Under the pieces are notes generated by a model, which made no database searches, was not told the DNA's origin, and was given only the letters and a program-made list of their open reading frames with translations. The position numbers were made by a program, and so were the translations under genes. Positions 3 through 2,896 of a DNA stretch of 23,348 bases are shown here, piece by piece; positions within the stretch are counted from its first letter, which is position 1, and every line of letters starts with the position of its first letter. Origin of the DNA: a virus; the IMG/VR virus record IMGVR_UViG_3300009432_000039, positions 1-23,348 of that record; one strand, 5' to 3'.

Positions 3-1049
3 ATGTTTGAAGGACTGCCCTTAGAGCCTGATGATGACGATGATGGTTGTCGTAATATTCGGCAAATGATGTATTTACTGTGCAACAAAGATGACGAAGT
101 GTGGAGTTGGTTGGCAAGGTGGTTGGCGTTTCCGTTGCAACATGTGGGCGCTAAAATGCATACAGCAGTATTGATGCATTCTGATGTGCAAGGATCGGGT
201 AAGTCATTATTGTTTGACGGGGTGATGCGGCCAATATTTGGTGAGTATGGTGCTACGCTTGGCCAGACCCAAATGGAAAGCCAATATACGGATTGGTCCA
301 GTAATTTGCTTTATGGTTTGTTTGAAGAAATTTTCAGTCGTGATCAAAAGTATTCCCACATGGGGACCATTAAACAAATGATCACCGGCGAAAAGCAGCG
401 CATTGAAAAGAAGTTTATGAGTGGTTGGGAAGAATCAAATCACATGAACTGTATTTTTTTATCAAATGAGTTGTTGCCGTTTCCAATTGAGCAGTCAGAT
501 CGTCGTTTTTTAGTGATTTGGCCAAACTGGAAGCTTGACCCAGAATTGCAAGCAAATGTAGGCCGAGAAATAAAAAATGGTGGTGCAGCAAAGTTTTTAA
601 ATTGGTTGCTAAAAGTAGATACATCTAACTTTGAAGAACGCACTAAACCGCCCATGACTGAAGCCAAAGAATGGCTGATTGATTTTGGCAGGCCCACTTG
701 GGATTCGTTTTATGTGCAGTGGCAAAAAGATTTATTAGAGGTGCCTTATTGCAGTTGTCTAACGTCGGACTTGTGGGAAGTGTATCGTCATTGGTGCAAG
801 CTAAATGGCATTGGTAAGGTGATGGATAACCAAAAGTTTCCAAAGCTGATAGAGCGCCGTGTATTTGCACGACAGGCCAAACAAAACTATATGAATGGTT
901 CAGATCAGAAGCAAGGTACGGTATATTTAACTGAGTCTGTTCCCAGTTTAAATGAAGACGGTAGTAAGGTTATCAAAAAGGTATGGCTTGGTGCGCAAGT
1001 GATGAAGTTTAAGCTTGCTATGTCGTCATACATTGTTGAATCTGAATGA
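3..1049 (+). CDS. P4-type phage replication primase/helicase, C-terminal part (5' partial)
   Basis: The visible 348 residues are a superfamily 3/P4-like helicase ATPase of the kind found behind a primase domain in phage and satellite replication proteins (DUF5906-like). Walker A is QGSGKS at residues 63-68, Walker B is probably LFEEI at 106-110, a sensor-like IFLSNE lies at 151-156 and an arginine-finger-like DRRF at 166-169. The frame is open to the left edge of the window and the first ATG falls just before the helicase domain. The true start and the N-terminal primase or zinc-binding part are therefore most likely outside the window. The protein would melt DNA and prime phage replication. 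The repeat-rich non-coding region directly downstream is a plausible target. The family assignment comes from motifs read by eye; the helicase class is firmer than the exact family. Confidence 0.8.
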   Translation: MFEGLPLEPDDDDDGCRNIRQMMYLLCNKDDEVWSWLARWLAFPLQHVGAKMHTAVLMHSDVQGSGKSLLFDGVMRPIFGEYGATLGQTQMESQYTDWSSNLLYGLFEEIFSRDQKYSHMGTIKQMITGEKQRIEKKFMSGWEESNHMNCIFLSNELLPFPIEQSDRRFLVIWPNWKLDPELQANVGREIKNGGAAKFLNWLLKVDTSNFEERTKPPMTEAKEWLIDFGRPTWDSFYVQWQKDLLEVPYCSCLTSDLWEVYRHWCKLNGIGKVMDNQKFPKLIERRVFARQAKQNYMNGSDQKQGTVYLTESVPSLNEDGSKVIKKVWLGAQVMKFKLAMSSYIVESE

Positions 1050-1050
1050 T

Positions 1051-1358
1051 TGTCGTAGGGCTCGTAGGGTTGAATGTATAGGTTATTGCATACCCCTACG
1101 ATACGAAAAGCCCCGTGCTTAAAGGCATGTATGGGTTTGTCGTAGGGGTTGCATAGGTTTGCGCGCACGCACGGGTGCGTAAATTTATATTTTACCAGTA
1201 GGCTTATTTTCTTCTTACGCGAACTTAAAACCTACACGACCTATACGACCCCTACGACAAATCAAATAAACCATTGATATAACTGATTAAAAGCATCGTA
1301 TAGGTTTAAACAAACTCCTACGATGCGGTACGACAGACAAAAAAGGGAACTACGACAT
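1051..1358. repeat. Array of TACGA/TCGTA (CCCTACGAC-like) repeats; candidate replication origin
   Basis: This stretch between the replication gene and the Q-like gene has no convincing gene. It carries about a dozen copies of a core TACGA or its complement TCGTA, most within a longer CCTACGAC/GTCGTAGG. Copies start near 1051, 1061, 1096, 1102, 1138, 1231, 1241, 1251, 1295, 1315, 1327 and 1349. The 1231-1260 cluster is a tandem run of three with about 10-bp spacing. CCCCTACGA at 1093-1101 and TCGTAGGGG at 1140-1148 form an inverted pair. GCATCGTA at 1293-1300 and TACGATGC at 1319-1326 form another. An AT-rich stretch at about 1181-1230 sits between the clusters. The layout fits an iteron origin next to its initiator/helicase gene, as in satellite P4. 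A regulatory array for the downstream gene is the alternative. Confidence 0.6.
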
Positions 1359-1695
1359 GAATGAAGTGATTCATCAAAGACTTTTAAACTGGTCTGAGGC
1401 CGTAAAAGGCGGTTTAACTATGTCAGGGTATTGCTCGGTACTGGGAAACCTTGCCAGCGAATCAGGCGGCCAGTCTGCCCACGATTACAGAATACCTTTC
1501 AGCATTACCATCGAAGAAACAGAAAAGGCCGTACAGACTCTGCCAGACGCTTTAAAGAATATTGTTTTAGAGTTTTATATGAACGATGCCAGCACCTTAG
1601 ATCAAAAGCTTAAAGCGCTGGAAATATCCAAGCGCACTTTGTATCGTCGCTTGGATATGGCTCATGGGTTGATTTTAATTACTGTGAGGTCCTAA
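1357..1695 (+). CDS. Q-like late antitermination / late-gene regulator
   Basis: A 112-residue protein whose C-terminal half (about 50-108) looks like the sigma-region-4-type helix-turn-helix seen in lambdoid antiterminator Q-like and similar late regulators. The features are a leucine-rich helix (LPDALKNIVLEFY), then KALEISKRTLYRRLDMAHGLI, the putative recognition helix. The N-terminus (INR/LLNWSEAV...GG...GYCS) also has the feel of lambda-group Q proteins. It sits after the replication module and upstream of the late genes, the usual Q position. Several intrinsic terminators inside the late operon support an antitermination system. The start ATG overlaps the last TACGAC repeat, so the array may also control it. 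Its stop overlaps the convergent DUF6161-like gene by 17 bp. The family assignment is inferred from motif and position. Confidence 0.6.
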   Translation: MNEVIHQRLLNWSEAVKGGLTMSGYCSVLGNLASESGGQSAHDYRIPFSITIEETEKAVQTLPDALKNIVLEFYMNDASTLDQKLKALEISKRTLYRRLDMAHGLILITVRS

Positions 1696-2896
1696 ACGAC
1701 CTTGTTAAATCGTTTATAGGTAGTGTGGGGCCGTTTTCATTGTGAAGTAGGCCAGACTCGCTTCTACTAAATAGAGAGGTTAAAACAAGCTCGCGATCCT
1801 TTTCCTTTAGTTCGGTTTCATTGCATAGCGCGAGATAGAAGTGGGTTAGCTGTTCCCTTTCTCTTGCGTCTTGGGCTAGGTGGAGTGAGCTAAAGATAAA
1901 TTTGGATAATGCTTTGAGTGTAAATCCTAATATGGCAACAATGGTTGCAAATATAAAGGCTCCTTTTAAGCTTCCTAGGTCTAACTCATGCTGCTCACCG
2001 CTGAGCCATGTAATAAAGAATGTACTTAAAAATATTAATGTTATTGCGATGATAATGCCGGAGATAATAGCGCTATAGAGAGCTTTTAAATTATGTTCTT
2101 TGGCGAGGTTTTTCCAGTACTCTGCTGGGGCCTTAAGTCGTAGGTCTTCTTTGTATAGAGCTTCAAGGCGGTCTTTCTCTTTTGACCACTCCTGCAATTG
2201 ACCTGTAAATATTTCATCGTGCTGTCTGATCTGGTTCTTAAGTAATGTATCAGCGCAGTTTTGTGTGGCGGTGAATTTTTCAGTTATTGAATTTAACTCG
2301 TTTTCTGTGTCAGCTCTTAAAGTCTCTGTTTGGTCATTGGTTGCTGTAACTAGTTCATCTGTTTTTTCAATGATGTCATCTATCGACTCTTCTTCGCTTT
2401 GTCTTCTTTTGGTTATGTCTGATTTTTGAAAGCGGAACTCATATGCTAATAAATTACCTAGAAATGACTCTGCATTGAATGTCTGTGGTTTGAAATAATC
2501 ATTTCTAGAGGATGACCAGAAATGAAATGCTGTTGCAAGGTCGTGGTCTTTTGTTATTTGGAGGATCTTTTTTGCTAAAGGTGTTGATCGGCTAATGAAA
2601 TACAATCGCGTGAAATTAATTAGATTAGTAGTGTCGCGTCGTACGATTTGATCAAAGAATCGTTTGTTGAATTCTTCAGGATCATCTTTATTGCTTGCTA
2701 TTAGACGCGAAATATAACTCAGGGCGGTGCTTAGGATTGAATATGCTTGAAATGGCGACCCCGGATAAGTCTCAGCAGTGTTAATCTCTTTCCAGAAAGT
2801 GGTTTCTCGTATTAGAAATTTTTCAAGAGAATCAGCTGTCTTGAAGGTATGGCTGTGTGTGAGCTGAAGGGGTTGGTCGAATTTCATTTTATCCAC
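1679..2896 (-). CDS. DUF6161-like coiled-coil membrane protein (probable prophage moron)
   Basis: A 405-residue protein on the strand opposite to all surrounding phage genes. It has a mostly helical soluble N-terminal part (1-160), a long charged coiled-coil region (about 165-255), the motif APAEYWKNLAKEH (256-268), two membrane segments (about 273-297 and 309-332), and a cytoplasmic-looking tail with LFSRSESGLL (375-384). This pattern resembles DUF6161 proteins, which as far as I know have no established function. The annotated start is a GTG; an ATG three codons later (at 2887) is an alternative. It lies between the Q-like gene and the late leader and has an inverted repeat just upstream. 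It is therefore probably expressed in the lysogen, independently of the lytic program. A role in phage exclusion or host fitness is plausible but unproven. Confidence 0.7.
   Translation of the reverse strand: MDKMKFDQPLQLTHSHTFKTADSLEKFLIRETTFWKEINTAETYPGSPFQAYSILSTALSYISRLIASNKDDPEEFNKRFFDQIVRRDTTNLINFTRLYFISRSTPLAKKILQITKDHDLATAFHFWSSSRNDYFKPQTFNAESFLGNLLAYEFRFQKSDITKRRQSEEESIDDIIEKTDELVTATNDQTETLRADTENELNSITEKFTATQNCADTLLKNQIRQHDEIFTGQLQEWSKEKDRLEALYKEDLRLKAPAEYWKNLAKEHNLKALYSAIISGIIIAITLIFLSTFFITWLSGEQHELDLGSLKGAFIFATIVAILGFTLKALSKFIFSSLHLAQDAREREQLTHFYLALCNETELKEKDRELVLTSLFSRSESGLLHNENGPTLPINDLTRSFRTSQ

Follow-up and report, generated by a model that had tools for sequence, protein, structure and literature searches.

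A very probable iteron replication origin 3′ of a phage DUF5906 helicase gene, kept in place while its repeated word changes among relatives

The window analysed here, a stretch of viral DNA of 23,348 nucleotides, carries directly 3′ of a helicase gene some 300 bp of short repeated words, which very likely form an iteron replication origin read by the C-terminal winged helix of the adjacent initiator. As a similarly laid-out array has been found at the same place in relatives that use different words, copying of the phage DNA very probably begins in this region. The first-pass annotation had proposed a candidate iteron origin beside a P4-like initiator, and this proposal has gained support, since an array is present at the corresponding position in 93 of 97 non-redundant relatives and the parts of the relatives' initiator, the winged helix being predicted, follow the order known from P4 alpha. 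The features of the window are the following, with L1 to L6 and R1 to R6 denoting sites to the left and right of the central gap:

3–1049, plus strand: 3′ part of the initiator gene, coding for a DUF5906 (SF3-like) helicase and then a winged helix (PF19263, E 5.6e-17); the 5′ end is cut by the window
642–1046, plus strand: C-terminal winged-helix domain, residues 214–348, the proposed word reader (AlphaFold); it differs most between close relatives with other words
1050–1356, no strand: proposed replication origin, two inverted half-arrays and a central gap (word counts, arrays of relatives, layout fit)
1052–1059, minus strand: site L1, CCTACGAC, exact word
1061–1068, minus strand: site L2, CCTACGAG, one mismatch
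1076–1082, minus strand: weak site L3, CCTATAC, a position occupied in relatives and a near-miss in the layout fit
1095–1102, plus strand: site L4, CCTACGAT, one mismatch, reversed as in L009, L074 and the Pseudomonas relatives
1139–1146, minus strand: site L5, CCTACGAC, exact word
1151–1157, minus strand: weak site L6, CCTATGC (sequence; layouts of relatives)
1161–1180, no strand: central GC-alternating element GCGCGCACGCACGGGTGCGT; GCGCGC or CGCGCG lies in the same interval of relatives
1181–1230, no strand: AT-rich centre, including TTCTTACGCGAAC (1212–1224), which is related to the TTCTC..GCGAG element of relatives
1231–1240, plus strand: site R1, CCTACACGAC, +2 variant, CCTAYRCGAY match
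1240–1249, plus strand: site R2, CCTATACGAC, +2 variant, CCTAYRCGAY match
1251–1258, plus strand: site R3, CCTACGAC, exact word
1295–1304, minus strand: site R4, CCTATACGAT, +2 variant, CCTAYRCGAY match
1317–1324, plus strand: site R5, CCTACGAT, one mismatch
1327–1334, plus strand: weak site R6, GGTACGAC (layout fit)
1349–1356, plus strand: extra site ACTACGAC, one mismatch, abutting the next start codon
1357–1695, plus strand: Q-like gene, antitermination-type with helix-turn-helix, a neighbour outside the proposed mechanism

Within the 23-kb window, CCTACGAC has been counted four times as an exact copy against 0.25 expected, a number reached by none of 100 shuffles; three of the four copies (L1, L5 and R3) fall within the array, and a single outlier lies at 2137–2144. 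Four further array sites (L2, L4, R5 and the extra site) deviate from this word by one mismatch, and CCTAYRCGAY, a CCTACGAC-type form with two added central bases, occurs three times in the window, every time inside the array (R1, R2 and R4; 0.2 expected). Together with the weaker fits L3, L6 and R6, the array holds about 12–13 sites, in agreement with the dozen copies in 300 bp and in both orientations that had been noticed initially. The other structural observations made at that stage have been borne out as well: a tandem run of three sites spans 1231–1258 with steps of about 9–10 bp, two long-range inverted pairs join 1136–1158 to 1239–1261 (23 nt, 91%) and 1050–1066 to 1244–1260 (17 nt, 94%), and the AT-rich gap has a GC content of 0.35 at 1170–1229, though the GC-poorest stretch of the array is found at 1260–1319 (0.27). 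A de novo word score of 20.5 places the array at the top of 209 overlapping 440-bp stretches, the best score elsewhere in the window being 17.0, so that by word score alone the array stands modestly above background. The agreement of its site positions with those of relatives using other words is the stronger sign. A scan of IMG/VR for tandem CCCTACGAC has yielded 13 stretches, none comparable to the array, and thus no second element with the word of the window has been found; an Rfam search has assigned no RNA family to the array region. The +2 sites at 1231–1304 read CCTA-YR-CGAY, and a like variant, CCTATAGGAC, seems to be present at locus L005, a hint that the site may consist of two parts joined by a flexible middle.

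When the window word was counted beside the helicase in 76 relatives, no enrichment was observed. The first impression that the array is refuted by its unconserved word has been reversed by a de novo word search at each locus, in which nearly all relatives have proven to possess an over-represented word of their own. Further relatives, added from annotated phages, viral contigs and bacterial genomes, have brought the set to 340 usable loci, which were reduced to 97 non-redundant ones with downstream DNA less than 88% identical. In 93 of these 97, the first 400 bp past the helicase gene hold a dense array of the locus's own word scoring above 17.7, the maximum of in-gene controls, while shuffled sequence reaches at most 11.3; the four loci below the control maximum are L078, L086, L232 and L236. 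An array lacking conservation beside this helicase family, named at first reading as a refutation, has been checked for and did not occur, the word alone being unconserved. The words range from CCCTACGAC in the window over CCCTAGGAC (L005), CCCTAGGC (L009), CACGGCA (L011), CCTCCGGCC (L012), TACGGGAT (L015), CCCTAGACA (L074) and TTCCGACA (L223) to CCCAACACA in Pseudomonas, CTGTCTGA in Halomonas, CCCTGCACA in Moraxella, CCCGCACA in Stenotrophomonas and TACACTTT in phage NrS-1, and conservative clustering of selected loci has resolved 9–14 word groups depending on the cut. Whole phage records hold the words almost exclusively at a single locus, with 5 of 5 copies at the array in PG1, 10 of 11 in Turba, 11 of 12 in NrS-1, 12 of 12 in the phage of L009 and 8 of 9 in that of L015. 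The word is unlike the P4 iteron, and the suggestion of an undescribed initiator specificity has turned out to be understated, since many sub-lineages use different words of their own. Among eight more distant phages, array-like repeats have been seen in phiAxp-2, in Silvanus and weakly in JS26, and none in the other five; the repeated words 3′ of the primase gene at the corresponding loci (L386, L387 and L391) are TTGCAGGT, CTGTAACC and CTACGCAA, that of JS26 being weak. The NrS-1 helicase, used as a query against viral contigs, has retrieved no relatives.

Calling sites by a weight matrix built for each locus, with a threshold chosen by us, has uncovered a layout common to loci with different words, in which two half-arrays of opposite orientation surround a central gap. 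Examples, with arrowheads for orientation, are the Pseudomonas layout (13<, 22<, 33<, 55>, 99<, 108<, gap, 200>, 209>, 218>, 263<, 274<, 294<), that of L009 (0<, 9<, 20<, 40>, 87<, 95<, gap, 184>, 193>, 201>, 238<, 257>, 267>) and that of L012 (-2<, 9<, 20<, 64<, 72<, 81<, gap, 175>, 184>, 192>, 236>, 248>, 259>). The commonest steps between sites are 9, 11, 12 and 8 bp, followed by 20 and 43–45 bp. There are roughly six sites per side, but the totals mostly range from 10 to 17, 13 being the commonest, so that six plus six is to be taken as an idealised and approximate count; several layout variants exist, and the orientation of the right outer sites differs between lineages. When site positions of other loci were transferred to the window and scored with its own word, none of 300 randomised layouts equalled the fit of those from L009, while 1 of 300 and 6 of 300 did so for the less sharply fitting Pseudomonas and L012 layouts. 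The centre is likewise shared irrespective of the word, as GCGCGC or CGCGCG lies between the half-arrays at 63 of the 97 loci (5.2 expected) and a CGCGAG/TGCGAG element at 29 of 97 (4.6 expected). The GC-alternating tract and the TTCTC..GCGAG element, situated at +101 to +205 past the stop codon, are kept while words change, and together they are a possible melting or priming element.

The inverted halves might also be thought to form a large stem-loop that is itself the functional element, with the words as by-products, as has been proposed for plasmid pRN1 and BPP-1. Window positions 1050–1356 indeed fold strongly as single-stranded DNA (z -5.6), and pRN1 needs a stem-loop 3′ of its replication gene (PMC4234260). 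Many sites are, however, direct repeats outside the inverted arms, and the 8–12 bp steps are kept whatever the word. In a related Bordetella phage, iterons have been sought without any origin-like ones being recognised, and a stem-loop has been proposed instead (PMC4234260); our own inspection of BPP-1 3′ of the primase-helicase gene has likewise detected no word array, which indicates a different arrangement there and shows that the array trait has its limits. We thus regard a purely structural role of the stem-loop as very improbable. The pRN1 protein ORF904 and the BPP-1/BIP-1 proteins do resemble the initiator considered here in combining primase, helicase and winged helix and in a proposed origin 3′ of the gene (PMC4234260), the difference being the stem-loop proposed there and the word array found here.

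Regarding the protein that may read an iteron origin of this kind, the initiator of the relatives consists of PriCT_2-Toprim followed by the DUF5906 helicase, in one or two reading frames; Toprim, PriCT_2 and DUF5906 have been found as such in relatives, the window begins after the N-terminal part of the gene, and the winged helix is a prediction. AlphaFold models the C-terminal 135 residues as a winged helix (pLDDT 90) with helices at 41–54 and 65–71 and a hairpin at 76–96 in domain numbering, and the recognition helix and wing correspond to about residues 273–316 of the window protein. The top ranks of a Foldseek search include RTP, RFX and the P4 origin-binding domain, none of them significant (best E 0.4); a structure search of the winged helix in a viral library has given one match below 0.001, a predicted phage helicase, and a profile search of this region against PDB sequences nothing significant. 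The single PDB sequence match of the initiator protein is the ring-forming NrS-1 helicase. Across pairs of loci, word distance shows a partial rank correlation of 0.28 with winged-helix distance and of 0.19 with helicase distance, the winged helix has the highest mean association with the word per alignment column (1.44, versus 0.24 in the helicase), and a nearest-neighbour test agrees weakly (14 against 9 in favour of the winged helix, with 30 ties). The association of winged helix and word is modest. Hand-picked pairs with different words, which serve as illustration and not as a blind test, have helicases 79–98% identical and recognition helix plus wing only 43–81% identical: 98% and 58% for L316/L297, 93% and 61% for L015/L092, 93% and 54% for L021/L068, and 90% and 60% for the window and L005. 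Differences within such close pairs sit mostly in the recognition helix, the wing and the tail. Among same-word pairs, the recognition helix and wing are 77–100% identical in five of six, and 63% identical in L020/L025. We propose that the C-terminal winged helix is the reader of the array word.

Whereas the upstream initiator is a constant neighbour of the array, the downstream genes vary, being Q-like in the largest group, the terminase small subunit in Stenotrophomonas S1 and NrS-1, and others in Moraxella. This bears on two further explanations. The array could consist of operator sites through which a transcription factor, for instance the downstream Q-like protein, controls late genes, and its position directly upstream of the Q-like gene, with the last copy abutting the ATG at 1357, would suit this function; like arrays nevertheless precede the terminase small subunit genes of S1 and NrS-1 and other unrelated genes, the words, unlike operators, are without repeats elsewhere in the genomes, and a search of the array region has found no sigma-70 promoter-like site, all of which makes an operator highly improbable. 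A packaging site (cos or pac) recognised by terminase is to be considered in view of the terminase genes just past the array in S1 and NrS-1, and appears exceedingly improbable, as other genes separate array and terminase in the window and in Pseudomonas and Halomonas phages and it is the initiator that constantly adjoins the array. The contact of the last copy (1349–1356) with the Q-like start codon, pointed out at first reading, does exist in the window, but looks incidental, since in the relatives inspected the arrays stop short of the next gene. A coupling of replication and late transcription through the Q-like gene, also suggested there, is not supported, given the varying downstream genes, with terminase or unrelated genes beside other arrays, and the array region without a sigma-70-like site. 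Just past the Q-like gene, a DUF6161 gene (1679–2896, minus strand) has a PADLOC match to AbiZ, an abortive-infection protein (E 4.9e-22), and is possibly a defence gene carried by the phage.

An origin of this design would work like those of SaPI/PICI Rep and of P4 alpha. SaPI Rep uses its C-terminal domain to bind iterons that immediately follow its own gene, and seems to do so as two hexamers (PMC7581432). According to PMC6092414, an AT-rich region lies between two sets of iterons 3′ of rep in every PICI identified in that study, an organisation shared with no other known bacterial replicon. The window and its relatives have in common with these the placement of the iterons directly behind the initiator gene and the two sets around an AT-rich segment (GC 0.35 at 1170–1229 in the window), as well as, by prediction, a self-loading helicase whose C-terminal domain acts as the reader and here tracks the word. 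They differ in that the window carries terminase and structural-type genes and the relatives are complete phages, not small satellites, and in that a DUF5906 helicase with PriCT2-Toprim occurs with many words on a recurrent layout. SCCmec Cch2, which forms hexamers and dodecamers, attaches by its C-terminal domain to short direct repeats that come right after its gene (PMC7581432), again resembling the repeat position and the predicted reader found here, with only three iterons and a different helicase family. P4 alpha combines a Toprim primase, an SF3 helicase and a C-terminal winged-helix origin binder with repeated words (domain order, PMC4234260; structure 1KA8), parts to which the Toprim and DUF5906 domains of the relatives, the predicted winged helix and the array would correspond. 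Its array differs from the one described here, which is a single array directly 3′ of the gene, and so does its word. The P4 iteron word, GGTGAACAG, has no match in the array with up to one mismatch, in line with the first-pass remark that the motif differs from the P4 iteron.

The closest biochemical model is NrS-1, which shares with the window a DUF5906 helicase, ring-shaped in NrS-1 (PMC8718748, PMC7102993), and differs in its archaeo-eukaryotic primase with HBD, head and tail domains, in place of which the window's relatives carry PriCT_2 and Toprim. The published recognition word of NrS-1, TTTGGTTA, has two copies per genome (PMC7102993); in the window it occurs three times, at chance level, with no copy in the array. 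Directly 3′ of the NrS-1 polymerase gene we have found 11 exact copies of TACACTTT. The two TTTGGTTA sites are thereby joined by another candidate origin in NrS-1, whose enzyme serves as the model for the DUF5906 group. The annotated NRS1_29 (L090:4943–5344) spans this array, has no Pfam match and is probably not a gene.

By analogy with SaPI Rep and the ring-shaped NrS-1 helicase, the initiator, a PriCT2-Toprim primase with a DUF5906/SF3-type helicase, would bind the short repeats via its C-terminal winged helix, so that one helicase ring could be loaded on each inverted half-array of about six sites, with the rings facing each other. The centre between them, composed of the GC-alternating and the AT-rich segment, would then be melted and would give rise to bidirectional replication. 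Cumulative GC skew in seven records has no turn at the array, which counts against an origin, and this absent turn probably reflects transcription. A further and rather doubtful extension of the iteron origin is that each site serves one hexamer subunit (six plus six) in a head-to-head double ring and that the reader can be exchanged as a module and is subject to diversifying selection, in which case about a dozen sites would have to be rewritten together whenever the reader changes.

Searches of the open-access literature have turned up no previous account of iterons in PriCT-2 phages. The same arrangement as in PICIs now appears in tailed phages including NrS-1, which bears on the PICI-exclusive statement of PMC6092414. 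If the exchangeable reader were true, it might offer, for example, an escape from co-infecting phages or satellites relying on the same origin. For the large group of tailed phages sharing this helicase, which comprises phages of Pseudomonas, Stenotrophomonas, Halomonas, Moraxella and other gammaproteobacteria, the array provides a predicted origin and a matched pair of initiator and word, and natural pairs with a near-identical helicase and a different word make the origin specificity of a self-loading helicase testable by domain swaps.
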